Below are positions 49,689 to 64,000 of a DNA stretch of 64,000 nt, piece by piece. The notes beneath the pieces were generated by a model. The model worked only from the letters and a program-made list of their open reading frames with translations. It was not told where the DNA came from and ran no database searches. The translations under genes were made by a program, and so were the position numbers. Within the stretch, counting starts at the first letter, position 1; each line of letters starts with the position of its first letter. The stretch is taken from the NCBI RefSeq assembly GCF_018603515.1, contig NZ_JACATN010000004.1, positions 1-64,000 of the forward strand, read 5' to 3'. The stretch is from Zobellia barbeyronii. Its GTDB lineage: Bacteria; Bacteroidota; Bacteroidia; Flavobacteriales; Flavobacteriaceae.

Positions 49689-52274
49689 ATGAAAACATTC
49701 TTAATCACCTTAATTGCAAGTCTCGCCCTTCTTTCCTGCGCAGACAAAAATAATGCTCCTTTTAAATTGGAAAACGGAGTTTCTTTAGAACTGGCGAACT
49801 ATAGAAAAAGCCAAATTTCCGATATAAACTATCAACTAGATTTTAATATCCCGAAAGACAGAAATTCGCCTATACCCGCCAAATTAGTTCTAAATGTAGA
49901 AATTTCTAATCTAGAGGCTCCGTTGTATCTAGACTTTAAAGAAAAAACTGCCAACTTAAAATCTATTGTGGCCAACAACAAAAAGATTACCGTTGTTCAT
50001 GAAGAAGAACATATTATAATTGCCCCTAAGCACCTTAATATTGGCGAAAACACTATAGAAATTGAATTTATTGCCGGTGAATCATCTTTAAACAGAAACG
50101 ATACTTATCTCTATACACTTCTAGTTCCGGACAGAGCCCGAACACTTTTCCCTTGTTTTGACCAACCCAATCTAAAAGCTACTTACTCCTTAGATATTAC
50201 CGCACCAAAAGATTGGGCAGTACTTTGCGGTGCTCCAAAAGTTAATAAAGAAGAAATTGAAGGTTTTACCAAACATCATTTTGGCAAAAGTGATCAAATG
50301 AGCACGTACTTGTTCTCTTTTGTTGCTGGCGAATTTGAAACTACCCACCAAAATCCGGGTAAGTTTGATATGAAAATGCTTTACAGGGAAACCAATGAGG
50401 ATAAGATTGCTTTTAGTACAGATACTATTTTTAATCTTCATCAACAATCAATATCCTTTTTAGAAGATTATACCGACCACAAATTCCCTTTTCAGAAACT
50501 AGATTTTGCAACTATTCCCGGGTACCAATATGGTGGCATGGAACAGGTGGGTGCCGTTCAATACAAAGAAAGTACTCTGTTCTTGGATGAAACATCTACT
50601 GAAAATCAAAAACTACAAAGGGTAAAACTTATAGCTCATGAAACAAGCCACATGTGGTTTGGAGATTTGGTAACTATGGATTGGTTCAATGATGTTTGGA
50701 TGAAAGAAGTCTTCGCTAATTTTATGGCCGATAAAATAGCTAATCCGGTTTTCCTGGAAATTAATCACGACCTCGCTTTTATGACCACGCACTACCCTAG
50801 GGCATATGGTGAAGACAGGACCAGAGGGTCTAATCCTATTCGCCAAGAATTAGATAATCTAAAGAATGCCGGCTCCCTTTACGGAAGTATTATCTACAGC
50901 AAAGCACCTATAATGATGCGACAATTAGAAGCGGCTTTAGGCAAAGAGGCTTTTCAAAAAGGGGTTCAAAAATATATTAAGACCTACAGTAACAGTAATG
51001 CTACGTGGAACGACCTAATTGCCCTATTTGTAGAAAATACAGACGTGGATATTGAAAAATGGAGTGAGGTTTGGGTAAACGGTCCTGGGCGTCCTATATT
51101 TCATGAACAAATAGTGTACGATTCCAATGAGAGAATAATGTCTTTTACCATAAGCCAAACCGCAGAAGATGATAGCTACCGGGTGTGGCCCCAAACTTTT
51201 GACATTACTCTGGTCTACAAAGATAGTTTGCAGAACATTGCAGTTGATATGAAAGGGAGTAGCGTAGAACTTAGCGCAGCAGTAGGAAAATCAAAACCCT
51301 TATCTATTATCTATAATTCCAATGGCATGGGTTATGGCGTTTTCCCCATGTACGATATAGAAAGCGAAGAAACTCCTGAAATTAAAGATGATATTACGCG
51401 CGGCTACATATACATTAATAGTTATGAAAGTGCCTTAAACGGTTTAATTAAGCCCGAAACTATACTAGAATTCTACCGAGAGAGCTTAGCTACTGAGAAA
51501 AACGAGCTTTTGACCAATCTACTTTCCGGTTACATTAGCAACCTTTTTTGGAAATACCTTTCTCCTGAAGAAAGAATAAAATATCAACCTCTTCTTGGAG
51601 ACATGCTTTGGTCTCAATTACAGATGGAGATACCTGCCAATATGAAGAAAACGCTGTTTTCTACTTTTCGTTCAATTGCTTTTTCTGAGAAATCAACTGC
51701 CCAATTGTATAGCGTTTGGCATAAAGACCATATCATACCCAATTTGAAGTTGAACCAAGATGATTATACCAAAATGGCTATGAGTTTGGCTCTGTTCAAT
51801 CATACGGACTATGAGAACATTTTACAAGAAGCCAAGGAAGATATTAAAAACCCTGATGATTTGACGGAGTTTAATTTCCTGCTCCCTTCGTTATCAAATG
51901 ATTTAGCTGTTAGACGGGAATTTTTTAAATCTCTTAAAGATAAGGACAACAGACAGAGAGAATCTTGGGTATTAAGCGCATTAAGCAATCTAAATCATCC
52001 ATTAAGAGACGAAGAAAGCATTAAAAACTTAAGAACAAGTCTAGACATGTTAGAGGAAGTTCAAAAAACAGGTGATATTTTCTTTCCTAAAGGATGGCTC
52101 AATAATACCATCGGCAAACATACGTCTGCCGAAGCTTATACTATTTTAAATGATTTCCTAAGGGATAACCCCAATTTAGAGCCGACTCTATTGAGTAAAT
52201 TATTGCAAGCGTCCGATGATTTATATAGGGTGCATACTTTTAGCGAAAAAGAAGGTTCAGTTCCTGCCAAGTAG
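49689..52274 (+). CDS. M1 family aminopeptidase lipoprotein
   Basis: This 861-residue protein has a lipoprotein signal (lipobox LLSC, Cys 17), so it acts in the periplasm or at the outer membrane. It has an N-terminal beta saddle, then the exopeptidase motif in the variant form GGMEQ (about 282-286, normally GAMEN). The zinc site is HETSH (His 317, Glu 318, His 321) plus Glu 340 in WMKEVFANF. A C-terminal HEAT-like helical domain covers about 560-850. It trims N-terminal residues from peptides, supplying amino acids. The monocistronic gene has terminators on both sides. Confidence 0.93.
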   Translation: MKTFLITLIASLALLSCADKNNAPFKLENGVSLELANYRKSQISDINYQLDFNIPKDRNSPIPAKLVLNVEISNLEAPLYLDFKEKTANLKSIVANNKKITVVHEEEHIIIAPKHLNIGENTIEIEFIAGESSLNRNDTYLYTLLVPDRARTLFPCFDQPNLKATYSLDITAPKDWAVLCGAPKVNKEEIEGFTKHHFGKSDQMSTYLFSFVAGEFETTHQNPGKFDMKMLYRETNEDKIAFSTDTIFNLHQQSISFLEDYTDHKFPFQKLDFATIPGYQYGGMEQVGAVQYKESTLFLDETSTENQKLQRVKLIAHETSHMWFGDLVTMDWFNDVWMKEVFANFMADKIANPVFLEINHDLAFMTTHYPRAYGEDRTRGSNPIRQELDNLKNAGSLYGSIIYSKAPIMMRQLEAALGKEAFQKGVQKYIKTYSNSNATWNDLIALFVENTDVDIEKWSEVWVNGPGRPIFHEQIVYDSNERIMSFTISQTAEDDSYRVWPQTFDITLVYKDSLQNIAVDMKGSSVELSAAVGKSKPLSIIYNSNGMGYGVFPMYDIESEETPEIKDDITRGYIYINSYESALNGLIKPETILEFYRESLATEKNELLTNLLSGYISNLFWKYLSPEERIKYQPLLGDMLWSQLQMEIPANMKKTLFSTFRSIAFSEKSTAQLYSVWHKDHIIPNLKLNQDDYTKMAMSLALFNHTDYENILQEAKEDIKNPDDLTEFNFLLPSLSNDLAVRREFFKSLKDKDNRQRESWVLSALSNLNHPLRDEESIKNLRTSLDMLEEVQKTGDIFFPKGWLNNTIGKHTSAEAYTILNDFLRDNPNLEPTLLSKLLQASDDLYRVHTFSEKEGSVPAK

Positions 52275-52303
52275 CATTTGATTTTGCGAGGATATTAAGT
52301 AAC

Positions 52304-52336
52304 AAAAAAGAGCACTCTAAGAGCGCTCTTTTTTTT
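52304..52336. terminator. Bidirectional terminator between aminopeptidase and guaB
   Basis: AAAAAAGAGC (52304-52313) pairs with GCTCTTTTTT (52325-52334), with an inner CTC/GAG stem. It lies 30 bases past the aminopeptidase stop and about 23 bases past the guaB stop on the other strand. Confidence 0.9.
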
Positions 52337-52358
52337 GTTATTTGAAGATAATTAATAT

Positions 52359-53831
52359 CTATCTACTGTAATTAGGTGATTCTTTAGTAATAGTTACATC
52401 ATGAGGATGACTTTCGTTAATACCACTTGCTGTAATCTTAACAAAACGGCCATTCTCTTTTAATGCGTTGATGTCTTTAGCACCACAGTAACCCATACCT
52501 GCACGAAGACCACCAACAAACTGGTGAATACTCTCATATAATTCTCCTTTGTATGGTACACGACCTACAATACCTTCTGGAACTAGTTTCTTAATATCAT
52601 CTTCTACATCTTGAAAATACCGGTCTTTACTACCTTCTTTCATAGCTTCAACAGAGCCCATACCACGGTATGACTTAAATTTTCGGCCTTCATAGATGAT
52701 AGTTTCACCTGGAGATTCTTTGGTTCCCGCAAGAAGAGAACCTAACATAACGGTATCCGCACCAGCTGCAATAGCTTTTGGAATATCACCTGTATAGCGA
52801 ATTCCTCCATCGGCAATTACCGGAACACCAGAACCTTTAATCGCTGCTGCTACTTCTAACACAGCGGAAAACTGTGGAAAACCAACCCCTGCAACAATAC
52901 GAGTAGTACAAATAGAACCTGGACCAATACCAACTTTTACGGCATCTGCACCGGCTTCTACTAAATATTTAGCTGCCTCACCTGTTGCAATGTTACCTAC
53001 AATAACTTCTAAATCTGGAAATTTCTTTTTAACTGCCTTCAAAACAGTAACCACACCTTTAGTATGACCATGTGCCGTATCAATAACAACAGCATCAACA
53101 CCTGCATTTACTAGAGCCTCTGCCCTATCTACTGCATCTGGCGTAACACCAATGGCCGCAGCAACACGTAACCTACCGTAGGTATCCTTGTTAGCCATAG
53201 GCTTTTGGGTCAATTTTGTAATATCTCTAAAAGTGATAAGACCTACTAATTTATAGTTCTTATCGACTACCGGAAGTTTTTCAATTTTATTTTCTTGAAG
53301 AATATCTTCGGCTTGGGCCAATGAAGTACCCTCACTTACCGTAACCAAATTCTTAGTGGTCATTACTTCAGAAATTGGACGGTCATTATTTTTTTCAAAA
53401 CGAAGGTCTCTGTTGGTAACAATACCAATTAATTTTCCTTCGCCATCTACTATCGGAATTCCACCAATGCTAAATTCTTTCATATTCGCTTTAGCATCAC
53501 GAACAAAAGAATTTAATGGTAAAGTAACAGGATCTATGATCATACCACTTTCTGCACGTTTTACTTTACGCACCTTTACCGCTTGCTGAGCAATGCTCAT
53601 ATTTTTATGAAGAACACCAATACCTCCTTCTTGCGCAATGGCTATAGCCATTCGTGATTCAGTAACCGTATCCATAGCAGCTGATACAACTGGTACGTTT
53701 ATAGTAATATTACGAGTAAATTTGGTTTGAATATTAACTTCTCTGGGGAGTACTTCAGAAAAGGCAGGGACTAGAAGTACGTCATCATAAGTGAGACCTT
53801 CTCCAACAATTTTATTCAGGTGAGCTTCCAT
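52359..53831 (-). CDS. guaB: Inosine-5'-monophosphate dehydrogenase
   Basis: GuaB oxidises IMP to XMP in guanine-nucleotide synthesis. The frame opens 27 bases upstream, but I start at the Met of [22 protein letters not shown] (490 residues) because a -7 box overlaps the earlier codon. It has a TIM barrel with [10 protein letters not shown], two CBS domains (about 95-215), a catalytic loop [15 protein letters not shown] with the active Cys, [12 protein letters not shown], the flap GMGSVEAM and a C-terminal SGINESHPH. The length is typical. Confidence 0.96.
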
Positions 53832-53855
53832 AGCAATTAATGATTTAATTGCGTG

Positions 53856-53863
53856 CAAATGTA
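53856..53863 (-). promoter_or_regulatory. -7 box of guaB
   Basis: On the minus strand this is TACATTTG, an exact TAnnTTTG, 25 bases before the chosen guaB start. It overlaps the more upstream in-frame Met. Confidence 0.5.
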
Positions 53864-54058
53864 GTGAAATAAATTCGTTATCTCCTTATAATCAATACTC
53901 GTTTGCTTCAAAAGGCAATCGTAAAGAAACCACTCACATTCCTCTGCCTAATATCTTTATATCACATCAAAAAAAACATTAGTCTATTTTTCTATAAAGC
54001 GATTTAAAAGTGAGAAAAAAAATCCATCAGAATTTATGATTTCTATCTTGAAATGCTC

Positions 54059-56533
54059 TTATAATTTGAATTGAAGTGTCGTATAAAATGTTCTTGGTTC
54101 AGACGGAATAATACCTGGTCCCGGGTAGCCCGTAGCTCTTCGGGTAAAATATGAATTATCTAAAAGGTTATTAATTCCCGCTTCTAGCTTCCATTTTTTG
54201 TACGTGTAAGAGAGGGAAAAATCCAAAATATCATATGCAGGAATCACACCTTCTATTCCTCTTTGGTTATCATTTACGTCTTGTGGTGCATTGGTGGCAT
54301 CTGTAAACTGATCAGCAAAATAAGTATACTGAAGACTTCCCAAAAGGTTATCATAACCAAAGTTTAACCCTGTCTTAAGATTGACTTTTGGAATGAACTC
54401 TACTTCATTACCTTCTACATTGTTTCGTTCAGAAGAAAGATATTCAGATTTAGTAATTGCTAAATTGGCAAAATAATTCAATTTCACTTTTTCCGATTGT
54501 GGAAAGAAGGTTTCCTTTAAGCTCCAATTTGCAAAACTTTCCAGACCGTATATAAAAGCGGTTCCGATATTCCCTCTTGCTCTTAATAATTTCCCAGTTG
54601 AAACTTCTTCACCAGCCGCATTAACCTGCGTTTCTTCTTTCAAGATTTCTCCTAGCCTATTATCATAATAGAGCCCATATACGCTTACATCATACGATAG
54701 AATATCTTTAAATCTTCCTCTAGCACCAAAATCTGCGGTAAAGCCATCTTCATCTGAAATATTTGGATCTACTTGAAAAGAAGGGTTTACTACGCGTATA
54801 TCACTGAACGTTACAGAACGGTAGTTTTGAGAAAAATTACCATACAATTCTACACTAGGTGACAGCTTATATGTAGCACCCAACCCCAACAAAACAAAGG
54901 TTCTATCAAAAACCCTATTATCATCTATTTCTCTATTTAGTAATGGATTACCCGCCAAATCTAACGTGATTTCTTGGTAACTACCTATACTTTCTGTTTT
55001 AATATGTTCCAAACGAAAACCAGGCGTTACCGCTAATTTATCTGAAAGGTTGAAAATATTTTCCCCAAATAACGCCACATTAAAGTTTGGAAAATTAAAC
55101 TGAGACTGCCTTTCATAATTCGGAAAACTAGTATCGGCAAAGTTAAAATCAGCATCCGCATCTGCAGAACCAGGTCCCTGTCGTTGATCGTTATTTGTCT
55201 TGTAAATTTTTGAACCCAATAAAAGTGCAGATTCAGTACCTGCCAAATTATACCTTGTTAATACTCTAGCTTCTGCTCCCCAGTTACTAAAATTATCAAT
55301 CAATAATTCTCGTGGCTCAGATATTACATCTTCTTGAGAAACTCTGTTGGTTCTAAAACCCAGTGCTCTACGAGAGGCATTCAAACCGAAAACGTTCAGA
55401 CTAAAATCTGTCTTTGGCGAGAATGCATGATCCAAACGAAACGAATATAAGCGCCAATCTACCTCAAACCAGTTTCTATCACGATTGCTAAAAGTTGGGT
55501 CTTCATAAAATTGGGCATCGGTTAAACCACCTGGTTGTTTCGCTAAATAGTGCAAGAAAGTAGTCTCTAAGCTTACTTTGGTTTTATCGGAAATCTCGTA
55601 ACCTAAATGCGTAAAATAGTTCTTGCTGTTAAAATTTGAATTTGGCCGAAACCCATTTCCATCTTTATAACTCAGATAGGTGTAGTAACTAAATTTACCC
55701 ACCGTACCACTCAAACTATTGAAGCTTGTGAACAGGTCATACGAACCGACGGTCTGGCGAGAAATGAGTTCTATTTCTTTGTTCGGATTTGGTTTTTTGA
55801 ACTTGAAGTTGATCAAACCCCCAAATTGGCTTCCGTATTGCAAAGAAGCTGCACCGCGCACTACTTGAATCTCCTCAAGAGCTTCTGCAGGTGGGGTGTA
55901 ATAGCTTTCTGGGTAACCTAACACATCTGCGCTAATATCATAACCGTTCTGGCGCGTATTAAAATTAGCCGTTCTATTAGGGTCCAATCCCCTACCACCA
56001 ATATTTAACTGCAAACCAGCATCGCCATTATCATAAATATTAAGCCCCACAACCTGACTATAAATTTGTCTTGCGTTGTTAGCTGCAAGGTTGCCAGTAA
56101 GGCCTTCCATTAGAACTACCTCTGTTTTTTTACCGGCATAAATAGCAGTGCCTTCTACCTTTTTTAATTGTTTTAATGCGAATACTTTTTCACGTCTCTC
56201 GGTTAAAACCACTTCTGAAAGTTGTTGAGATTTTATACGCTGAAGTTGAACACTGAGATTAAAAGTGGTATCAAATGTTAATTCCTTTTCATATACATCA
56301 TATTCAAAAGCGAAGACTACTACCGTATACTTACCTCCGGCAATATTGGAGAACTCAAAATTGCCATCGACATCCGTGGTTTTTAGAAGTTGTACCTCTT
56401 TTAAATACACTTCTGCATCTTGAACAGGTTTCCCCTTTTCATCGGTTACGTTGCCAGTAATCGTAATCTGACTAAAGCCAGAAAACGAGATTAAGAATAC
56501 TATGAATATGATACTAAATTCCCTTAATTTCAT
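54059..56533 (-). CDS. FecA-like TonB-dependent receptor
   Basis: This 824-residue outer-membrane receptor has a signal peptide ending GFSQ. A carboxypeptidase-regulatory-like domain (about 22-95: TITGNVTDEKGKPVQDAEVYL) is followed by a plug (about 105-250: NIGGRGLDPNRTANF, EEIQVVRGAASLQYGSQFGGLINF). The barrel contains KQPGGLTDAQF, typical of FecA-type ferric-citrate receptors, and ends RTFYTTLQFKL. It probably imports a ferric or other metal chelate. It is last in a minus-strand operon; its start overlaps the end of the gamma-carboxylase-like gene by 20 bases, suggesting translational coupling. Substrate assignment from sequence is only to the FecA-like group. Confidence 0.92.
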   Translation of the reverse strand: MKLREFSIIFIVFLISFSGFSQITITGNVTDEKGKPVQDAEVYLKEVQLLKTTDVDGNFEFSNIAGGKYTVVVFAFEYDVYEKELTFDTTFNLSVQLQRIKSQQLSEVVLTERREKVFALKQLKKVEGTAIYAGKKTEVVLMEGLTGNLAANNARQIYSQVVGLNIYDNGDAGLQLNIGGRGLDPNRTANFNTRQNGYDISADVLGYPESYYTPPAEALEEIQVVRGAASLQYGSQFGGLINFKFKKPNPNKEIELISRQTVGSYDLFTSFNSLSGTVGKFSYYTYLSYKDGNGFRPNSNFNSKNYFTHLGYEISDKTKVSLETTFLHYLAKQPGGLTDAQFYEDPTFSNRDRNWFEVDWRLYSFRLDHAFSPKTDFSLNVFGLNASRRALGFRTNRVSQEDVISEPRELLIDNFSNWGAEARVLTRYNLAGTESALLLGSKIYKTNNDQRQGPGSADADADFNFADTSFPNYERQSQFNFPNFNVALFGENIFNLSDKLAVTPGFRLEHIKTESIGSYQEITLDLAGNPLLNREIDDNRVFDRTFVLLGLGATYKLSPSVELYGNFSQNYRSVTFSDIRVVNPSFQVDPNISDEDGFTADFGARGRFKDILSYDVSVYGLYYDNRLGEILKEETQVNAAGEEVSTGKLLRARGNIGTAFIYGLESFANWSLKETFFPQSEKVKLNYFANLAITKSEYLSSERNNVEGNEVEFIPKVNLKTGLNFGYDNLLGSLQYTYFADQFTDATNAPQDVNDNQRGIEGVIPAYDILDFSLSYTYKKWKLEAGINNLLDNSYFTRRATGYPGPGIIPSEPRTFYTTLQFKL

Positions 56534-57881
56534 CAGTAAAAGGTATTATCCAATTTTTATGTTCAAATGACTCCCGCTCTTCGCCAAGGTCTACTTTTGG
56601 GTCTATATACGTAGTACTTAACCGCCCATTCAGAGCAACTCGACTATCAACAAATATTTGCACGTTTTTATGTCCGTCTTTTTCAAAATGTCTTTTTAGA
56701 TATTGAGCATATTCTAAAATAAAATCAGGTTGAAAAGACATTTGTTTTTCTTGAAAAGGTGTCAAAAAATCTGAGTTATCCACATAAAACCACTTTCCAG
56801 AATCTTTGCTAACTACTTTGAATTGGGCGTAGCCTGATTTTTCCATTAGCATAACCCGCCATGAAAACCGGTATCCTTCTTCTGTCCAAAATAATTCTCC
56901 GGGATAGACTAAATAACGCCATGGCATTAGTAATTGAATCACAAAAAATAATGAGATTAAAACCAGTTTGGAATTGGTTACCACATTCAGTGGCATAGCT
57001 AAGATTCGTTTGTTATCGAATCTATTTTTAGCAATACGAAAAAGACCACTAAAATAACCTAAGAGCTTATGATGAAAAGATGAATCAAAAAATATTAATG
57101 TAGAAATTATCATGACATACGGAAACATACCTATGGGGAATAACACGCGTGTCATCACATGAAAAACAACTACCATTAAAAAAGCAAAAGGCCGTGTTTT
57201 CTTATACAATAATAAGAATGGAATAGCTAAATCATAACCGGCCCCAAACCAGCTAAAAGCATACTGCACCCATTCTTCATGTAAAAACTGACCTAAAAGA
57301 GGTGTGTCAAATTTTGATGGCAGCCAAATTTTTAAAGGCATGGCTTTAAAAAGCCAATCGGAATTTAGTTTGGCCAGTCCGGCATAAAAATAAACAATGC
57401 CCAACATGAGTTTTACACTATTGATTGTCCACGCTGGGATTTTTTGAAACGCCTTTTTAGAATCTTGTTTGGCATCCAAAGAAAAATAGGCATTGGCCGG
57501 TAGAAAAATCATTAGAAAACTTAGCAGACTAATAAAGTAGTAATGGTTAAGGTAGGTGGTCTTATCCATCAGTTCTATATAAGTAAAGCTGATAAAAAAA
57601 GTGATAATCGCTATTTTGTATTTATAGCCTAATGCCACAAAAATAGCCGAGAGGCTACAGATAATAAATATGAGGTAGGTGTAGACACCCAAAGGTTTCA
57701 CCCATTCAAAACCATAATATGAGAAGAAAAACTTAGGCTGAATGTATAATTTTTCAATCCATCCGTAGCTCCAAAATCTTACAATACTCAGCAACATCAT
57801 CACACCAAATAAAATGCGAAAGACCGCCAAAGGGGCGGCCTCTATAGGGGCTGTAATATGTTTGCTAATGAAACGGTTCAT
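56514..57881 (-). CDS. HTTM / vitamin K-dependent gamma-carboxylase-like membrane protein
   Basis: This 455-residue protein has about eight to nine membrane helices and a soluble C-terminal part (about 335-455). It keeps residues of the human carboxylase GGCX. YLNHYYF (Asn 112, His 113) corresponds to the NNHSY region (His 160 in GGCX). YFYAGLAKLNSDW (Lys 171) aligns with the catalytic Lys 218 segment. VFHVMTRVLFPIGMFPYVM and EEGYRFSWRVML match further conserved blocks. GGCX uses reduced vitamin K, O2 and CO2 to turn Glu into gamma-carboxyglutamate. Flavobacteria have menaquinone, so such chemistry is conceivable; the bacterial function is unknown. It lies 3 bases after the imelysin gene and overlaps the FecA-like gene. 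Confidence 0.9.
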   Translation of the reverse strand: MNRFISKHITAPIEAAPLAVFRILFGVMMLLSIVRFWSYGWIEKLYIQPKFFFSYYGFEWVKPLGVYTYLIFIICSLSAIFVALGYKYKIAIITFFISFTYIELMDKTTYLNHYYFISLLSFLMIFLPANAYFSLDAKQDSKKAFQKIPAWTINSVKLMLGIVYFYAGLAKLNSDWLFKAMPLKIWLPSKFDTPLLGQFLHEEWVQYAFSWFGAGYDLAIPFLLLYKKTRPFAFLMVVVFHVMTRVLFPIGMFPYVMIISTLIFFDSSFHHKLLGYFSGLFRIAKNRFDNKRILAMPLNVVTNSKLVLISLFFVIQLLMPWRYLVYPGELFWTEEGYRFSWRVMLMEKSGYAQFKVVSKDSGKWFYVDNSDFLTPFQEKQMSFQPDFILEYAQYLKRHFEKDGHKNVQIFVDSRVALNGRLSTTYIDPKVDLGEERESFEHKNWIIPFTDEIKGI

Positions 57882-57884
57882 TTT

Positions 57885-59024
57885 CTAGTCGCCATCCGCA
57901 TCAACAAAATCAATACTTACGCTCATAGCAGAAACCATATCTACTTTTAACATAGGAACAATACGCTGCACTTCATCATATGCCAATAGCATATTAGTTG
58001 GCGGCACATTATTTTCAATTTCCTCACGGAAAGGTGCCAATGCTTCAACTTTAGTTTTAGCTAAATCAAATTGATCATTAATCAATTTTGTTAAATCATC
58101 ACCATCTTTAATCGTATTCAATGCATCTAAATAAGATGCTAAGCTTTCACCTGAAGTACTCTTACCGTAATGTACTCCATTAAAGAAATCTTGTACAGCT
58201 TCAAAACCTTCTAAGAAAAGTTCATTAGAAACATCTGCTTTATAATAAGCTTCTACATTTTGAGGAAGTACGTTTTCAGAAAAAGCACCTACAGGGATTC
58301 CCATTTTACCAGCTCTCAAAAACTTCTCATAGTAAAAAACATAGTCGTTTATAAAACGATCCACAGATGCTGTTGAAGATGCTCCGTCATTTTCTACAAA
58401 AGTATCTCTATACCCTGAATTCCATTCAGCAAGCACTCCCGTTGTAAGACCTGCCATATCAGCAATAACATCACCTGTATAAGAAATTAGGCTTTCTTTT
58501 TCAGCTCCATTATATTTTGCAACAATGTCTTCGTCCGTATCTCCCAATCCATTAATTAAATAATCTAAAGCAGGGAAACCTTTTGCATCTCTATTAGAAG
58601 CAAGAGCAAGGTCATAAGTTCCAGAGCTTACAAAACCATCTATTTTAGGCCCATCAGTAGGATAAATGTTCATGTTTAAGCGTAAGCCAACCGTTTCGGC
58701 AGGACCTATTTCAAACATAGAAACCCGTTGCCACATTTTATAAGCGGATAACCAAGATGCTCTAAAAGCTACAAGGTTAACTTCACTAGCATCTCCTTTG
58801 AAGGTATCAAAAGCAGTTTGTAAACCAGTCATTTCAATAGAAAATGCTTCGTGAGAAGGTATGATTATATTATCTGCCCAATTGGTTAGCATTGAGCCAC
58901 GCTCAAAACTCACTTCTTCCGGTTTTGGATCTACAATATCATCTGTAGTATCACTTCCACTACTATCGGAGCTACACGCCCATATCATTGTCGCCACAGT
59001 AAAAATGGCAAGAAACCTCTTCAT
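57885..59024 (-). CDS. Imelysin family lipoprotein
   Basis: This 379-residue protein has a lipobox IWAC (Cys 17) and a Ser/Asp-rich linker. The all-helical imelysin domain has WLSAYKMWQRVSMFEIGPAE and the signature GFPALDYLI (149-157), a variant of the GxHxxE motif of the IrpA type. A C-terminal half-repeat contains MLLAYDEVQRIVPMLKVDM. Imelysin proteins are periplasmic or surface lipoproteins tied to iron uptake, with poorly defined chemistry. The tight coupling to the carboxylase-like gene (3-base gap) suggests it could be substrate or partner of that enzyme (inference). Confidence 0.93.
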   Translation of the reverse strand: MKRFLAIFTVATMIWACSSDSSGSDTTDDIVDPKPEEVSFERGSMLTNWADNIIIPSHEAFSIEMTGLQTAFDTFKGDASEVNLVAFRASWLSAYKMWQRVSMFEIGPAETVGLRLNMNIYPTDGPKIDGFVSSGTYDLALASNRDAKGFPALDYLINGLGDTDEDIVAKYNGAEKESLISYTGDVIADMAGLTTGVLAEWNSGYRDTFVENDGASSTASVDRFINDYVFYYEKFLRAGKMGIPVGAFSENVLPQNVEAYYKADVSNELFLEGFEAVQDFFNGVHYGKSTSGESLASYLDALNTIKDGDDLTKLINDQFDLAKTKVEALAPFREEIENNVPPTNMLLAYDEVQRIVPMLKVDMVSAMSVSIDFVDADGD

Positions 59025-59060
59025 AGCTTATTTTTATTTATTCTAATTAAGCAAAAGTAT

Positions 59061-59100
59061 AAAAAGCAGCCTGTTATTTCCTAACAGATGCTGCTTTTTT
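59061..59100 (-). terminator. Hairpin inside the metal-uptake operon
   Basis: AAAAAGCAGC (59061-59070) pairs with GCTGCTTTTT (59090-59099), and CTGTTA with TAACAG inside it. On the minus strand the hairpin ends in TTTTT between the DUF4856 and imelysin genes. It is likely a partial terminator that lowers expression of the downstream genes relative to the first. Confidence 0.7.
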
Positions 59101-59135
59101 TTCAACACTTAAAATTTAATTCTATACAAGTAAGA

Positions 59136-60365
59136 TTACTCACCCGCTTGCGCAACAGTAAAACCGAATCTTTCTGCGATATCTTCGCAAATCTCATCTA
59201 TAGTTTCTGCTTCAACATCCCATAGTCCGTTTACACCATCTTCCATTAATTCTTCTAAAAGCTCATTAGACTCTTCTTTTGAAAAATAAGGAGCGTCCGT
59301 ACCTGGCTTGCGTGTAAATCGTAAGCTATAAATAAAACCATAAGCTTCAGACAACGCATGAAAAGCGCTTGCATAATTAGGTACTGCATCTGCTAGAGTT
59401 GCTTTTGCACGTTGCATGTAAAATACACCCCTAACGGCAGGTACTAAAGATATTTTCTCTCTAATAATCTCTGCTTGAGCATCACGAATATCATAATCTC
59501 CGGCTACGATAGCCGCACGACCTAACTTAAAGGCTTGGAAAATTTCATCTGCAATACCTGCAAAATCAGGATCTTCTTCTAGTTTCCCTATGTATTCATT
59601 TAAAAAGCTATCCGCCCCTAAATCTGCATTTGGATTAGAAGCATCAGCGTTAAGTCCATAAATGTAGCCATAAGCCTCATCCCATTTATGTTCCATATTT
59701 GTATAAGATGAACCTTCTAATACCGTTCCTGCATCATTGTCTTCTCGACTAGAGCCTTCGTCCAAAACTGCTGTACTCAAATAATTATTCAATGCCTGAT
59801 CGGTCATTAAAGCACCTATCAACCCTTTTGCGAATAATTGGTTGTATTCAAGACCTTGTGCATTAATGTAACGTGTTTTTTCACCATCGGCCAATTGACC
59901 AGCTACACCTGCCTCGGCAGTAACATTCCAATTTGTAAAAACATCATTCACTTGACCATCTATCCATGATTCAAAATCAGCGCGAATTAATGCTTGATCA
60001 GTAGCATTTGTAGAAAAGTAATCTACAGAAGCCGCAGTTTTACTACGAAGACTTTTATCTGAAGCATTTAAATCTGCATCTTCAAAATCTGCAGCACCTT
60101 CTTCATGTGCGTAAATTGATTTTAATGTTTCCGCCGTATTGGTATTAGTAGTAAAAGCACCCAACAGCTCTTGAGCCATTAAAATACGAGTGGTCTGACC
60201 TCCAAAACTTACAGTAGTCTCTCCATTTCTTTCAAAAGAATAACTAGCAGGGTTATCTATTACGATAGCTTCATCCATTTCTGTTCCCGTTGCGTCATCA
60301 TCTGAACTACATGATGTTAAAAAAACTACCGAACTAATGGCTAATGTAAAAAGGACTCTTTTCAT
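59136..60365 (-). CDS. DUF4856 family lipoprotein
   Basis: This 409-residue protein has a lipoprotein signal (lipobox LTSC, Cys 19) followed by an acidic linker (SSDDDATGTEMDE). The all-helical mature part matches the DUF4856 family by its YSFERNGETTVSFGGQTTRILMA opening, NMEHKWDEAYGYIYGLN and HALSEAYGFIYSLRF segments. The helical pairs recall imelysin. The sequence is rich in Glu and Asp, notably at the C-terminus. Function is unknown; it is first in an operon with imelysin, carboxylase-like and FecA-like genes. Its promoter carries a palindrome that could be a metalloregulator site. Confidence 0.9.
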   Translation of the reverse strand: MKRVLFTLAISSVVFLTSCSSDDDATGTEMDEAIVIDNPASYSFERNGETTVSFGGQTTRILMAQELLGAFTTNTNTAETLKSIYAHEEGAADFEDADLNASDKSLRSKTAASVDYFSTNATDQALIRADFESWIDGQVNDVFTNWNVTAEAGVAGQLADGEKTRYINAQGLEYNQLFAKGLIGALMTDQALNNYLSTAVLDEGSSREDNDAGTVLEGSSYTNMEHKWDEAYGYIYGLNADASNPNADLGADSFLNEYIGKLEEDPDFAGIADEIFQAFKLGRAAIVAGDYDIRDAQAEIIREKISLVPAVRGVFYMQRAKATLADAVPNYASAFHALSEAYGFIYSLRFTRKPGTDAPYFSKEESNELLEELMEDGVNGLWDVEAETIDEICEDIAERFGFTVAQAGE

Positions 60366-60379
60366 TATATGATTATTGT

Positions 60380-60402
60380 TTATTTAGACTTGATTTAAAT
60401 AA
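60380..60402. promoter_or_regulatory. Palindromic operator candidate (metalloregulator)
   Basis: TTATTTAGA and TTTAAATAA form an inverted repeat over 23 bases, placed between the -7 box and the DUF4856 start, where a repressor would block transcription. Related TCTAAATAA half-sites occur at about 60454-60462 and 60547-60555. The size and layout resemble DtxR/Fur-type boxes, but the regulator is not in the window. Confidence 0.5.
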
Positions 60403-60406
60403 AGCG

Positions 60407-60438
60407 CAAAACTAATACATGAAGTTTAGCTACGCAAA
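60407..60438 (-). promoter_or_regulatory. Promoter of the DUF4856-imelysin-HTTM-FecA operon
   Basis: On the minus strand TTTG (60435-60438) is followed after 20 bases by TAGTTTTG (60407-60414), the complete Bacteroidota -33/-7 pattern TTTG-N17-23-TAnnTTTG. The DUF4856 start is 41 bases downstream of the -7 box. Confidence 0.75.
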
Positions 60439-60561
60439 ATTATTCTTATTAAATCTAAATAATATTACTATCGATGAATTCTCAATAGGGATTACATCCT
60501 TTGTTTCATATTAATTTCAATCAAATAAATCACTATTTATAATTAATCTAAATAAAAATAC

Positions 60562-60569
60562 TATTTTTG
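60562..60569 (+). promoter_or_regulatory. -7 box of the small Cys protein gene
   Basis: TATTTTTG matches TAnnTTTG, about 87 bases before the ATG at 60657. A TCTAAATAA half-site lies 7 bases upstream of it. Confidence 0.4.
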
Positions 60570-60656
60570 ATTTATCATTTAAAGGCAAAGTTCTTTCTAT
60601 AATCACAAAGAATTTGCCCAATGTTGTTTAACCCCAGATAAACTAAAGATTACACT

Positions 60657-61022
60657 ATGGACGATATTAACCCAATTTACCACAACCCATTTGGCGTAGC
60701 GTTCCAATGGAAACGGAATACTTTGAAGGACGTTAGAAAAATACAGATAGTTTTTAGGGATACAGGTCTACTCTTGACTAGAAACGAGCTGGAAAAGTTT
60801 CAGAAAAATATTGAATGCACCATGAGCAGCAACACGCAATGTGTTGATTGTAACCAGCATGATACTTGCAGGTCTTTACTTTTAGATACACCTGCCCCAC
60901 AAATAACTTTAGCTATGAACTTAACGGAACTGAACGCAGTTCAGGATTTGGTAGAAGGCACTTTGTTTCAATTGAATTTGGATACCTACTTGAACAAAAT
61001 GTGTAATGGACAGGATGATTAA
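60657..61022 (+). CDS. Small conserved-looking Cys-containing protein
   Basis: This 121-residue soluble protein has no signal peptide. The middle contains a Cys cluster: IECTMSS, then QCVDCNQHDTCRS (CxxC and a further Cys five residues on), which could bind a metal. Flanking segments (FGVAFQWKRNTL, KIQIVFRDTGLLLT, FQLNLDTYLNKMC) look like a compact alpha/beta domain. It may belong to a Bacteroidota family of unknown function (possibly DUF6686; I am not sure). It is divergent from the metal-uptake operon and overlaps the convergent HMG-CoA lyase stop by 4 bases. Confidence 0.8.
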   Translation: MDDINPIYHNPFGVAFQWKRNTLKDVRKIQIVFRDTGLLLTRNELEKFQKNIECTMSSNTQCVDCNQHDTCRSLLLDTPAPQITLAMNLTELNAVQDLVEGTLFQLNLDTYLNKMCNGQDD

Positions 61023-61885
61023 TGGTACTTTGAAAAAAGCTCAGTAGCCTTGTTATAAGCGGCTTCAAAAACCATCCAATTAACACCGGAATCTGCTTTT
61101 TCTGCAGTAAAATACGAAAGCATTTTCTCGGTAGGCATATTACCGGTTAATTCGTCTTTTGCCATTGGGCAACCTCCAAATCCTTGAACGGCTCCATCAA
61201 ACCTACGACAGCCGGCTTTGTAAGCAGCATCTACCTTTTCATGCCATTTGGTAGGTGTTGTATGCAAATGTGCACCAAATTCAATATCAGGGTATCTTGG
61301 GATTAATTGCGAAAAGAGGTATTCAATTACTTCTGGTGTTGATGACCCTACCGTATCTGAGAGCGAAAGAATTTTAGCTCCCATTCCGCTTAATTTTTCG
61401 GTCCACTCCCCTACTATATCTACATCCCATGGGTCACCATAAGGATTACCAAAACCCATAGATATATAGGTCACTACCTCTTTACCAGAAGCATCGGCAA
61501 TATTGAGTATTTCCTGAAGGGTTTCTACAGATTGATCAATGGTCTTATGCGTATTCCGCATCTGAAAATTCTCGGAAATAGAAAAAGGGTATCCTAAATA
61601 TTGAATCTCAGAATGCTCGGAAGCATCTTGTGCGCCCCTAACATTAGCCACAATACTTAGCAGTTTGCTATTTGTTTTTGACAGGTCCAACTTTGATAGT
61701 ACCTCAGCGGTATCTACCATCTGCGGAATAGCCTTTGGAGAAACAAAACTCCCAAAATCTATTGTATCAAAACCACAGCCTAACAAAGCCTGAATGTATT
61801 TTACCTTTTCATTGGTAGGTATAAAAGGTTTAATGCCTTGCATGGCATCTCTAGGACATTCAATAACCTTAACCTTTTCCATCAT
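61019..61885 (-). CDS. Hydroxymethylglutaryl-CoA lyase
   Basis: This 288-residue TIM-barrel enzyme splits HMG-CoA into acetoacetate and acetyl-CoA in leucine breakdown. Motifs are IECPRDAMQG (the DGLQ-type region), IDFGSFVSPKAIPQM, ISMGFGNPYGDPWD, SLSDTVGSSTP, the metal-binding HLHTTP and the catalytic-loop GFGGCPMAKDELTGN. The Bacteroidota form is slightly shorter than the mammalian one. Two Met codons open the frame (61885 and 61882); either may be used. Confidence 0.94.
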   Translation of the reverse strand: MMEKVKVIECPRDAMQGIKPFIPTNEKVKYIQALLGCGFDTIDFGSFVSPKAIPQMVDTAEVLSKLDLSKTNSKLLSIVANVRGAQDASEHSEIQYLGYPFSISENFQMRNTHKTIDQSVETLQEILNIADASGKEVVTYISMGFGNPYGDPWDVDIVGEWTEKLSGMGAKILSLSDTVGSSTPEVIEYLFSQLIPRYPDIEFGAHLHTTPTKWHEKVDAAYKAGCRRFDGAVQGFGGCPMAKDELTGNMPTEKMLSYFTAEKADSGVNWMVFEAAYNKATELFSKYH

Positions 61886-61943
61886 GAAAATTAAATTCTA
61901 AGTAGGCAGTTTCAGCTACCCTTTTAACTACTCAAAATTAACA

Positions 61944-62579
61944 TTAATTATCCGATACTAGAATATAGACTGCAATACCAACAAACACAATGATTTGCAG
62001 CCACTTTAAATAAATACCGGCTGCAGAATTTTCTTTAAAATACACGGAAATACTCCCTGATAGGAAAGCTATCATGCTAAAAATAATAAAAGATATAAAC
62101 ATAAACAGCAGTCCAAGAACATAAAACTGCACCATGGTACTTATCTCTTCGCTAAAAAGGAAACCAGGAAAGAATGCCAGAAAAAATATGGTCACTTTTG
62201 GGTTTAGCACGTTCATTATAAAACCTTGCTTGAACAATTGCCAAAGTCCTTTTTTAGGTGCCACACCTTCCGATAAATTTAAAGAACCACTGCTTCTAAA
62301 GACCTTGAATGCAAGATAAAAGAGGTAAATAGCACCCAAAACTTTGATGCCCATAAAGAGAGCCTCACTCTCTCTTATAATTAAAGATACCCCAAAAGCT
62401 AATAAACTGGTATGCACTAGACAACCAGAAATAAGACCGGCTGTAGTTGCTAGCCCATATTTCTTACCATTTACAAGGCTTTGCATTAATACATAAATAT
62501 TGTCTGGACCGGGCGAAACGGACAAAGCCATAGTGGCCAACATAAAAGTGTAAAGTATTTCGTAATTAATTGTACCCAA
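61944..62579 (-). CDS. LysE/RhtB family amino-acid exporter
   Basis: This 211-residue inner-membrane protein has about six helices and the family signature SVSPGPDNIYVLMQSLVNGKKYGLATTAGLISGC, abridged here, with ISGCLVHTSLLAFGVS and NVLNPKVTIFFLAFFPGFL. LysE-type proteins export amino acids or related compounds by proton antiport. The substrate cannot be told from sequence. It is 58 bases upstream of the HMG-CoA lyase gene on the same strand. Confidence 0.92.
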   Translation of the reverse strand: MGTINYEILYTFMLATMALSVSPGPDNIYVLMQSLVNGKKYGLATTAGLISGCLVHTSLLAFGVSLIIRESEALFMGIKVLGAIYLFYLAFKVFRSSGSLNLSEGVAPKKGLWQLFKQGFIMNVLNPKVTIFFLAFFPGFLFSEEISTMVQFYVLGLLFMFISFIIFSMIAFLSGSISVYFKENSAAGIYLKWLQIIVFVGIAVYILVSDN

Positions 62580-62790
62580 ATTCCGTTCTATTTTAAGTAT
62601 AAATCATAGGTTCCAAAATTTTCTTCTGGAAACCTCAATGAGTGCACTAAAGTAAGTACTCTTTTTTATATCTTGTCACAAATTCAGGTTTCAATAAAAT
62701 TCAATTTTTTATGTTCTGAGTTTTTAGCTGGTCGCAATTTCCCCTCCTGTTAGGCCATAAGAGTAATTGCATCACAAAAAAATTAATGAC

Positions 62791-63210
62791 ATGAAACAAA
62801 GTCACATTACATTCACTTTGAGTTTAGTTTTAGTAGCGCTACTTTTAGTAGCTTTTGAAATCAGAAGTGAAACCAAACCAATATCAGAAACCTTCATGCA
62901 GAAAGATAGCCTGTTACGTCATGTAGTGTTGTTTAAGTTCAAACCAGAAACATCAAAAGAAGATATAAAAAAAGTTGAGGAAGCATTTACTGCCCTTCCC
63001 TCAAAAATTCCGCAAATAGTTAATTATGAATGGGGATTGAACAACAGCCCTGAAGGTTTAAACGAAGGTTTTACCCATTGTTTTTTCCTGACTTTTGAAA
63101 GCGAAGAAGACCGTGCTATTTACTTACCTCATCCAGACCACAAAGCGTTTGGTGAAGTTTTGACTCCACATCTAGGTGGTGTACTTGTTGTGGACTACTG
63201 GGCTAAATAA
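62791..63210 (+). CDS. Dabb-domain (stress-responsive A/B barrel) exported protein
   Basis: The protein is 139 residues from ATG 62791; the frame opens 24 bases earlier at TTG. An N-terminal hydrophobic segment (ITFTLSLVLVALLLVAF) is a signal peptide or membrane anchor. The Dabb ferredoxin-like domain follows: LLRHVVLFKFKPETS, NYEWGLNNSPEGLNEGFTH, FESEEDRAIYLPHPDHKAF and VVDYWAK. The His in the first strand and in the HPDH segment are typical. Function is unknown; many members are dimeric stress proteins. Confidence 0.9.
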   Translation: MKQSHITFTLSLVLVALLLVAFEIRSETKPISETFMQKDSLLRHVVLFKFKPETSKEDIKKVEEAFTALPSKIPQIVNYEWGLNNSPEGLNEGFTHCFFLTFESEEDRAIYLPHPDHKAFGEVLTPHLGGVLVVDYWAK

Positions 63211-63234
63211 AAAAATTCTATCCTATAAGCTTAT

Positions 63235-64000
63235 CTAGTTTTCACTACCCTGCCTCTTAAGAAGAGCCTTATTTATTCTTTTAATTAAACCTGGTCCTTC
63301 GTAGATAAAACCAGTATACAATTGAACTAAATCTGCTCCTGCGTCTAGCTTCTCTAGAGCGTCTTCTTCAGAATGTATTCCACCCACACCTACTATAGGG
63401 AAAGCCTTGTTGCTCTTTTCTGCCAAGAACCGAATTACTTCTGTACTTCTTTTGGTCAATGGTTTTCCGCTTAATCCACCCATTTCTTTTGTAAGCGATA
63501 CTTCTGATTTTAAGTTCTCTCTTTCAATAGTTGTATTGGTAGCTATAACACCGTCAATTTTTGTATCGGCAACAATAGTAATGATATCCAACAACTGGTC
63601 ATCCGTAAGGTCTGGCGCAATTTTCAATAAAATAGGTTTTTCCTTCTGTTGTTTCTGCAAAGCCAAATTTGTATTTTCTTTTTTCAGATCCAACAAAAGA
63701 GCAGTCAAAGGTTCTTTGTCTTGAAGCTCCCGGAGTCCCGGAGTATTTGGAGAACTTACGTTGACCACAAAGTAATCTACATGATCAAAAAGTGCATTAA
63801 AACAGATTAGGTAATCCGAAACGGCATCTTCGTTAGGCGTAACTTTATTCTTGCCAATGTTACCTCCAATAAGCACTTTATGTTGTTTCTTTAAACGTTC
63901 TACTGCATCCTCTACGCCCATATTATTGAAGCCCATACGATTCACAATAGCCTGATCAGGTTTCAACCTAAATAATCGCTTCTTAGGGTTTCCTGCCTGT
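63235..64000 (-). CDS. pyrD: Dihydroorotate dehydrogenase (quinone), partial
   Basis: This is the C-terminal part of a class 2 enzyme of pyrimidine synthesis. The frame stays open to the window edge, so the N-terminus is missing. Visible are GNPKKRLFR at the edge, [36 protein letters not shown] with the catalytic Ser, [30 protein letters not shown] and [26 protein letters not shown] for FMN binding. It is convergent with the Dabb gene at a distance of 24 bases. Confidence 0.95.

Follow-up and report, generated by a model that had tools for sequence, protein, structure and literature searches.

A vitamin K carboxylase homologue in a recurrent iron-starvation operon of Bacteroidota suggests that bacteria may gather iron by vitamin K chemistry

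What a relative of the human vitamin K-dependent gamma-carboxylase (GGCX) might do in a bacterium is the question raised by a group of four genes from Zobellia barbeyronii, located in a stretch of 64,000 nucleotides (positions 1 to 64,000 of contig NZ_JACATN010000004.1), which is referred to as the window. To our knowledge, no settled role has been assigned to the bacterial proteins of the vitamin K carboxylase family, and the function that vitamin K carboxylation had prior to blood clotting is an old question. A sequence-only reading of the locus had described an operon coupling such a protein (VKGC) to two acid-rich lipoproteins, an imelysin and a DUF4856 protein, and to a FecA-like receptor, and it had proposed the carboxylation of Glu residues in the lipoproteins to create a metal site for iron uptake. 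The analysis described here suggests that this relative of GGCX, with its catalytic core intact, is part of a recurrent iron-starvation operon, and that bacteria may gather iron by vitamin K chemistry.

The described layout of four minus-strand genes agrees with the coordinates of the open reading frames (Table 1), including the 3-base gap between imelysin and VKGC (57882-57884) and the start of the receptor inside the VKGC gene, which results in an overlap of 20 bases (56514-56533). A hairpin followed by a T-run, found between the DUF4856 and imelysin genes, is a probable partial terminator, since equivalent elements are present in 66 of 103 such gaps of at least 50 bases, compared to 3 of 103 when every gap is shuffled once by mononucleotides. 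This hairpin is absent from the nine hits of a terminator-like scan of the region 52000-64000 (shuffle mean 4.1), where a scan for sigma-70-type promoters gave 18 sites and thus fewer than the shuffle mean of 24.2, and where no Rfam match reached the gathering score.

Table 1. Features of the operon in window coordinates.
Feature	Position	Strand	Basis
DUF4856 lipoprotein, 409 aa	59136..60365	(-)	ORF call, Pfam DUF4856 526.5 bits
Imelysin-fold lipoprotein, IPPA type (GxHxxE His lost), 379 aa	57885..59024	(-)	Peptidase_M75/imelysin (PF09375) 88.6 bits
VKGC/HTTM membrane homologue of vitamin K-dependent gamma-carboxylase, 455 aa	56514..57881	(-)	Pfam, GGCX alignment
TonB-dependent outer-membrane receptor, 824 aa	54059..56533	(-)	Pfam barrel 102.4 bits
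Fur-box-like site, distal, ATTTAGATTAATTATAAAT	60535..60553	(-)	13/14 arm positions vs R. anatipestifer consensus
Fur-box-like site, proximal, ATTTAAATCAAGTCTAAAT	60382..60400	(-)	13/14 arm positions
Hairpin + T-run between DUF4856 and imelysin genes (probable partial terminator)	59061..59099	(-)	
C-terminal Asp-Gly-Asp codons of imelysin	57888..57896	(-)	
His113 codon of VKGC (= GGCX His160)	57543..57545	(-)	
Lys171 codon of VKGC (= GGCX catalytic Lys218)	57369..57371	(-)	

The proposed coupling of the genes is borne out by their recurrence. Among the 79 VKGC loci found in 296 Bacteroidota genomes, 61 display the order imelysin-VKGC-TonB receptor, which is preceded by DUF4856 in 55 cases, and the arrangement is therefore not a product of chance. 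The same order of the last three genes was found in 72 of 80 further loci, mostly from close relatives. VKGC and receptor frames, when begun at the first possible start codon, overlap in 55 of the 61 operons, with 19-26 bases in 31 of them. The most constant neighbour of the VKGC is an imelysin of the IPPA type. In 393 genomes, IPPA imelysins are present in 81 and VKGCs in 107, with 78 containing both (Fisher p 1.4e-53, not corrected for ancestry; G356, with an IrpA-type match only, and G363, below the cut-off, are left out of this count). Both genes adjoin in 77 of 90 imelysin rows, in a count without partial or IrpA-type matches on the imelysin side and without class-B rows on the VKGC side, where the rows were covered in part. 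In a phylogenetic tree, from which the gene in two pieces of L108 was left out, the VKGCs of the iron operons form a single clade of 66 rows (support 100/99), 65 of which adjoin an IPPA imelysin. Conversely, 18 of the 79 loci stand alone, with 17 of these placed outside the iron clade or, in case of L108, unplaced.

The link to iron, which the initial reading had drawn from the imelysin, is strengthened by signals of regulation. We scored a 19-bp box, ATTTAGA-N5-TCTAAAT, whose consensus originates from Riemerella anatipestifer (PMC5609570), and found sites with at least 12 of 14 arm matches upstream of 124 of 127 DUF4856 genes with upstream regions of at least 200 bases, compared to a mean best score of 9.6 in shuffled regions. 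The two sites of the window would qualify as boxes of the Flavobacteriia Fur regulon, and the proximal one is located 16 bases upstream of the DUF4856 start. Matches to the strict pattern number 6 in the 5-Mb genome, against 2 for its reversed control, and the canonical imelysin operon of this genome carries the same rare box. In R. anatipestifer, homologous loci are listed as iron/Fur-regulated in Table 4 of the cited study (PMC5609570). Based on the recurrent gene order, the Fur boxes and these regulated loci, we are confident that the four-gene cluster is an iron-acquisition operon.

Judged from its sequence, the third gene of the operon encodes a true homologue of human GGCX. The protein contains the HTTM (PF05090, 280.5 bits) and VKGC_lumenal_dom (PF22777, 204.3 bits) domains (cut-offs 27.7), and a phmmer search against human GGCX structures aligned two stretches covering both domains with an E-value of 1.9e-44 (9wfn). 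As anticipated in the sequence-only reading, His113 aligns with His160 and Lys171 with Lys218, and the alignment to solved structures makes it likely that both residues share one cavity. The GGCX residues N159, H160, K218, W223, G259 and F286, and likewise H287, F294, F299, W399 and M402, are kept in all 61 operon VKGCs, and N159, H160 and K218 in 73 of 73 VKGCs including four hybrids. In the pocket for the quinol, five of seven named residues are invariant in these 61 proteins, V210 is a Val in 57, and M401 is replaced by Val in all. On the substrate side, where H160 and N159 were described to hold the substrate Glu (PMC12589487), N158 is a Leu in 61 of 61 and R436 is replaced by Gln (49), Met (11) or Glu (1), whereas the propeptide contact Y425 is changed and not conserved. 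Further differences to the human enzyme concern K217 and N290, which are Ala and Thr, and the cysteines of the C99-C450 pair, which are absent. While the membrane part and the first luminal domain of human GGCX (PDB 9bum, 9l20 and others) align with the window protein, the later luminal parts of the 758-residue human enzyme are without counterpart in its 455 residues. The alignment stops near residue 506, with no equivalent of the propeptide-binding clamp (PBD-1 and PBD-2), which is a trait of the animal enzyme and not of the family as a whole. On the cofactor side, the genome of Z. barbeyronii contains menD, and no VKOR was found in it.

The receptor, which had been described as FecA-like, is a TonB-dependent receptor with barrel, plug and carboxypeptidase-regulatory domains. 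Its assignment to FecA is at most loosely right, as it reaches the curated cut-off in none of the 19 NCBIfam models matched, with 77.5 bits for the FecA equivalog (cut-off 1100) and 129.8 of the 223.5 bits needed for the siderophore subfamily, and as its two PDB matches, to YncD/PqqU, are weak (22.8 and 22.7 bits).

The acid-rich character of the two lipoproteins was evident in our analysis, where DUF4856 and imelysin rank second and third in Asp and Glu content among the 27 window ORFs of at least 200 residues. The imelysin combines an M75/imelysin domain with the replacement of GxHxxE by GxxxxE that defines the IPPA type, carrying GFPALD at this place with an Asp standing for the Glu; GxHxxE itself is found in one of 61 (L087) and none of 75 operon imelysins. 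Its C-terminus reads DADGD, and an exact terminal DGD is present in 60 of the 61 operon imelysins of the first set (the count behind the codon row in Table 1 leaves out L099). The motif is absent from 22 of 22 GxHxxE imelysins (L195-L216), which as best-scoring imelysins are biased to the canonical kind. We considered this motif as a mark of the VKGC and rejected it, since the imelysins of five IrpA-DHOR-IPPA operons end in NDGD (5/5), 3pf0 in STDGD, and those of VKGC-less operons in DGD as well. From this distribution, the arm is a property of the IPPA family with or without VKGC. For DUF4856, a profile comparison with the imelysin fold gave a probability of 90% over 36 columns only and this assignment was rejected; the protein has no PDB match and only weakly matches a model for FEA1-related lipoproteins (26.7 bits against a cut-off of 250), and our literature search found no paper naming 'DUF4856'. 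Among its VKGC-linked relatives (the cut sequence of L164 being left out here and below), Glu340 is conserved in 127 of 127, His336 in 124 and Glu173 in 122. Four proteins from VKGC-free genomes (L191-L194), too small and too divergent a set to settle the matter, carry Q, E, E and R at the place of Glu340 and R, H, K and Y at that of His336.

Operons of deviating composition bear on the question whether conserved residues depend on the enzyme. Three genomes (G427, G438 and G485) contain DUF4856, imelysin and receptor without VKGC in four operon copies, the VKGC thus not being obligatory. Of the Glu, Asp, His and Lys residues that are conserved when DUF4856 or imelysin is linked to a VKGC, none is missing from all four copies; Arg46 of DUF4856 differs in all of them, and Asp362 of the imelysin reads Gln in one. 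Glu233 and Glu258, the two Glu conserved throughout operon imelysins, persist in four and five, respectively, of five operons without adjacent VKGC (the partial L097 being left out). We thus found no VKGC-specific Glu in either protein, and the earlier proposal that the conserved Glu residues are the targets is not supported by this comparison; the lipoproteins may still be carboxylated on Glu. The VKGC is also found apart from imelysin and receptor, in L079 of Balneolaceae and in Roseivirga, where it (L129/L133) is separated from both (L262/L263), yet adjoins DUF4856. Hybrid operons (L099, L309-L312) hold both the di-haem peroxidase DHOR, whose PF06537 domain was confirmed in L270 and L311, and VKGC, the latter again following the IPPA imelysin, and in two hybrids IrpA and this peroxidase occupy the place of DUF4856. 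In L091, a haem oxygenase gene is inserted.

Our preferred model describes a Fur-repressed iron-acquisition operon of Bacteroidota, where DUF4856 and the IPPA imelysin, as exported lipoproteins, would trap iron or one of its complexes and pass it to the TonB-dependent receptor of the operon. The VKGC homologue would be a competent membrane enzyme that binds menaquinol, the vitamin K of the cell. With O2 it would generate a strong base at Lys171, and with CO2 it would carboxylate an acidic side chain in a partner protein that is exported as well. The likeliest partner is the IPPA imelysin or the lipoprotein working with it, which might then bind ferric iron better. Operon recurrence, Fur sites, the conserved catalytic core, menD, the co-occurrence of IPPA and VKGC and the single clade of the iron-operon VKGCs support this model, whereas the missing correlation of any conserved Glu or Asp with the VKGC, the VKGC-less operons and detached genes, the changed substrate (N158, R436) and propeptide (Y425) contacts and missing later luminal parts count against it. 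It also leaves epoxide recycling unexplained, as no VKOR was found. A homologue from Leptospira reportedly has an altered activity that hints at a function different from carboxylation, which equally counts against the model. We thus regard it as tentative, with a chance of being correct that falls somewhat short of even. The general claim that bacteria physiologically carboxylate proteins with the help of menaquinol in order to take up iron, and do so widely among Bacteroidota, is more doubtful, and a sharper form, in which beta-carboxylation of a C-terminal Asp in the DGD arm would generate a protein-borne, citrate-like tricarboxylate for Fe(III), is highly improbable, weakened by the presence of the arm in operons and genomes without VKGC.

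The most serious alternative, although in our view unlikely, is that the VKGC acts as menaquinol oxygenase or epoxidase of an iron pathway that carboxylates nothing and instead supplies an oxidising or reducing step, as DHOR may in IrpA-DHOR-IPPA operons. Such a role would agree with the location of IPPA imelysins next to DHOR or VKGC, with the invariance of Lys, His and most of the quinol pocket at altered substrate-side contacts, and with the lack of a substrate residue that tracks with the enzyme. However, a pure epoxidase should have less need for His113 and Asn112, which are strictly conserved, and the presence of both enzymes in the hybrids argues against a simple replacement of one by the other.

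Still less likely, the VKGC might modify another exported protein encoded elsewhere and merely share the iron regulation of the operon. The detached genes in Roseivirga and Balneolaceae and the solitary loci would fit this view, but not its position between the same two genes in most loci, nor the retained proximity to DUF4856 in Roseivirga. Finally, the enzyme could act on a small ligand of the receptor, such as a carboxylate siderophore or a haem product, instead of a protein. The receptor is adjacent in 61 of 61 operons and the gene inserted in L091 points to haem, but GGCX chemistry is known on peptides and none of three flanking ORFs run against Pfam is a siderophore gene; we regard this explanation as improbable.

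The significance of these findings lies in tying one clade of bacterial VKGCs, by gene order, regulation signals and phylum-wide co-occurrence, to iron acquisition through an imelysin and a TonB receptor. The operon narrows the candidate substrates to a few and offers a growth phenotype that is simple to test, which opens the role of vitamin K carboxylation prior to blood clotting to experiment in a harmless bacterium. If the VKGC carboxylates, it would reveal a new way of building a metal site for nutrient uptake and, if it does not, the use of the quinol-oxygenase half-reaction alone.

The described operon shares features with several known systems. In the transporter EfeUOB/M, an imelysin-fold protein is paired with a redox enzyme (PMC3143127), whereas none of the four genes described here is, by Pfam, the permease EfeU or the peroxidase EfeB. 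In RAYM_09779-09794 of R. anatipestifer, serial tags name a TonB receptor, a vitamin K-dependent gamma-carboxylase, an imelysin lipoprotein and a hypothetical protein, the latter a candidate counterpart of DUF4856; the text covered here lists these genes without discussing them as a system (PMC5609570). The IrpA-DHOR(DUF1111)-IPPA operons of the P. aeruginosa PA4370-PA4373 type, described as iron operons under Fur control (PMC3143127), contain an IPPA imelysin that has lost the His of GxHxxE as in our case and, in five Bacteroidota examples, ends in the same DGD, and the one present in Z. barbeyronii carries a Fur-type box like the VKGC operon. In comparison to this arrangement, with the P. 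aeruginosa proteins compared by description, DUF4856 replaces the GxHxxE imelysin, and VKGC and receptor replace, or join, the di-haem peroxidase.

The four minus-strand genes proposed by the sequence-only reading are present in the window, with the 3-base gap and the 20-base overlap around the third gene confirmed, and Pfam assigns them to DUF4856, imelysin (Peptidase_M75), HTTM with VKGC_lumenal_dom, and a TonB receptor. The suggested kinship of the third protein (VKGC) to the human vitamin K carboxylase GGCX is borne out by matches to human GGCX structures (E 1.9e-44), which cover the membrane part and the first luminal domain. The receptor, which had been called FecA-like, does belong to the TonB receptor family, but the FecA label is too precise since its score lies below the curated cut-off, as it does in all 19 NCBIfam models matched; its PDB matches are weak and confined to YncD/PqqU.

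Among 296 genomes of the phylum (at least 90% complete), 68 contain VKGC_lumenal_dom, at 79 places in total. Two of these places are supplied by the window and a second region of its genome (L003), and regions of up to 18 kb were extracted around the other 77. The survey of gene order proposed in the same reading found imelysin-VKGC-receptor in 61/79 loci, preceded in 55 by DUF4856, with VKGC standing alone in the remaining 18. In the six loci without an adjoining DUF4856, the locus stops at the edge of its contig in two (L068, L097), the gene is present behind an inserted haem oxygenase in one (L091), a gene resembling a di-haem peroxidase/oxidoreductase (DHOR) takes its place in another (L099), and DUF4856 was not found at L082 and L083. 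All four genes occur in 72/80 loci from titled records, which as the best 80 of 581 are close relatives, the closest VKGC among them being that of Zobellia uliginosa (87%). DUF4856 is found in 50/296 genomes, 46 of which also contain VKGC (Fisher p 3e-32, uncorrected for shared ancestry). The operon is split in two Roseivirga genomes, where VKGC and DUF4856 stay together (L129, L133) and imelysin and receptor reside elsewhere (L262, beside a second DUF4856, and L263).

The GxHxxE motif is nearly absent from the operon imelysins (1/61 and 0/75), which therefore belong with the IPPA type described in an excerpt of PMC3143127. Within 393 genomes of the order, IPPA imelysins occur in 81, VKGC in 107 and both in 78, and VKGC lies within about 2.3 kb of 77 of the 90 full-length IPPA matches taken. 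Five hybrid loci, three of them missing DUF4856, combine these genes with DHOR and with IrpA, the other imelysin type of IrpA-DHOR-IPPA operons: two show the order IrpA-DHOR-IPPA-VKGC, with no clear adjoining receptor in the scan (L309, L310), two the order DUF4856-IPPA-IrpA-DHOR-IPPA-VKGC-receptor (L311, L312), and in L099 the DHOR-like gene is followed by IPPA-VKGC-receptor, with an imelysin piece upstream. These orders thus identify IPPA as the usual neighbour of VKGC. The genome of the window also holds, on the same contig, a separate IrpA-DHOR-IPPA operon (see table). In three genomes (L314, L315, L316) such an operon lies no more than about 100 bases from the VKGC operon, in convergent orientation.

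An exact Asp-Gly-Asp (DGD) end terminates 60/61 and 73/75 operon imelysins, and both terminal Asp are invariant in an alignment of 137 imelysins; since the codons for Asp, Gly and stop differ among 60 sequences, selection acts on the protein. As a mark specific to VKGC this end was rejected, because it is shared by the IPPA imelysins of separate IrpA-DHOR-IPPA operons (5/5) and by the Psychrobacter crystal-structure protein 3pf0, where it lies in the last six residues, which are disordered in the crystal. With 3pf0 included, the constant C-terminus extends across an imelysin family. In 26 loci chosen for other reasons, the DGD end is found in 28/28 imelysins lacking GxHxxE and having a closed end, and in 0/16 with GxHxxE. 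The arm appears to be characteristic of IPPA imelysins as a family, and is not mentioned in the excerpt of PMC3143127.

Residues of GGCX described in an excerpt of PMC12589487 were mapped through an alignment onto the 61 operon VKGCs. N159, H160, K218, W223, G259, F286, H287, F294, F299, W399 and M402 are kept in all, which points to strong selection on the base, on the greater part of the quinol pocket and on some of the Glu site; the catalytic residues are still invariant in 73 sequences, four hybrids among them. Conversely, N158 is replaced by Leu, K217 by Ala, N290 by Thr and M401 by Val in 61/61, R436 by Gln (49) or Met (11), and the Y395 position holds Tyr (49) or Phe (12). Since these proteins keep the catalytic core but depart from GGCX at other contacts that face the substrate, and lack its later luminal part, the sequences suggest an active enzyme whose substrate is presented otherwise than human clotting factors. 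MenD was found in the genome, so menaquinone is likely made; a search of the same genome for VKOR found none.

Upstream of DUF4856, 124/127 regions contain a site with at least 12/14 arm matches to the 19-bp R. anatipestifer Fur box given in an excerpt of PMC5609570 (shuffle mean 9.6), with two Fur-type sites in the window. The strict box occurs at six places in the whole genome (reversed control: 2), namely at the window operon, in front of the canonical imelysin gene (C32:786397), beside a hemA-like gene and at three others. The same excerpt lists as iron- and Fur-regulated four R. anatipestifer loci with serial tags, annotated as TonB receptor, 'vitamin K-dependent gamma-carboxylase', 'putative lipoprotein imelysin' and hypothetical, with table values of 2.11-3.07 upon iron restriction and 1.36-1.93 upon fur deletion in iron, whose units are ambiguous against a text stating at least 2 for all columns. 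Sequence evidence, together with a single published table of expression values, gives the iron link of the operon good support, and we infer iron transport as its role.

Iron starvation would lift Fur, upon which DUF4856 would be made in excess, followed by imelysin, VKGC and receptor. Such excess is probable given the hairpin and T-run that come after the gene in 66/103 loci (3/103 when shuffled), a structure that probably lowers expression of the genes downstream. With menaquinol and O2, VKGC would generate a base at Lys171 (GGCX Lys218) and carboxylate an acidic residue in a partner protein that is exported. The likeliest partner is imelysin or the companion lipoprotein, which would bind ferric iron with increased affinity before handing it to the receptor.

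Coordinates of features in the window and related loci
Feature	Location	Description	Remark
Hairpin and T-run	59061-59099 (window)	strong hairpin between DUF4856 and imelysin	kept in 66/103 related gaps
Haem oxygenase	L091:11488-12090	PF01126, 62.5 bits	between DUF4856-like gene and imelysin
IrpA-DHOR-IPPA operon	L270:2093-5939 (C32, 782.6-786.4 kb)	di-haem oxidoreductase PF06537	same rare Fur-type box; IPPA ends NDGD
Fur-type box	L256:1501-1519	between hemA-like and AraC-like genes, window genome	names from sequence reading
Second VKGC	L003:8878-10209 (C11)	stand-alone, between ribF-like and serS-like genes, window genome	also near pth-like and long secreted-protein genes; names from sequence reading
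Asp-tail lipoprotein	L225:646-1371	DUF4382-like, 23.0 bits	below cut-off 25
Asp-tail lipoprotein	L226:3095-3793		
Asp-tail lipoprotein	L227:1941-2660		
Asp-tail lipoprotein	L228:687-1403		
Balneolaceae-type VKGC	L228:1495-2943 (= L108 place)	gene in two pieces	in-frame stop between

The main rival to carboxylation holds that VKGC oxygenates the quinol only, as a redox helper in place of the di-haem peroxidase of relatives. Three genomes hold operons that keep DUF4856 but lack VKGC between imelysin and receptor (G427, G438 in two copies, G485), and no VKGC match was found anywhere in their assemblies; as these are 90-95% complete, its absence is likely rather than certain. The enzyme thus seems to assist the transporter without being one of its core parts. 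The idea that Glu residues of the two lipoproteins are modified gained no conserved target: every E, D, H or K shared by at least 85% of the VKGC-linked DUF4856 or imelysin proteins survives in one or more of the four VKGC-less copies, and therefore no single conserved acidic residue stands out, with imelysin Asp362 reading Gln in one copy and DUF4856 Arg46 differing in all four. If carboxylation does take place, it may concern non-conserved acidic residues, for example in linkers near the lipid anchor, and a recent loss of VKGC would likewise leave no mark on its partners.

In a midpoint-rooted tree, the iron-operon VKGCs and the stand-alone L079 form one clade (66 rows, 100/99), separate from a clade of stand-alone flavobacterial VKGCs including the second copy in the genome of the window; other Flavobacteriaceae show neighbours similar to those of this copy. 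Within the iron clade the first to branch are three hybrids, but the fork dividing them from the remainder is weak (91/43). In 4/5 loci of a distinct Balneolaceae VKGC type, the protein encoded directly upstream is a lipoprotein with 7-13 consecutive Asp at its end, so that here too an acidic C-terminus occurs beside the enzyme.

Bacterial VKGC homologues and imelysin iron operons are already in print. So is the control of the R. anatipestifer loci by iron, as listed in the excerpt of PMC5609570. A limited literature collection yielded no paper describing the operon as a system. It is best regarded as an iron operon of the imelysin/TonB kind that regularly includes an enzyme of the vitamin K carboxylase type.
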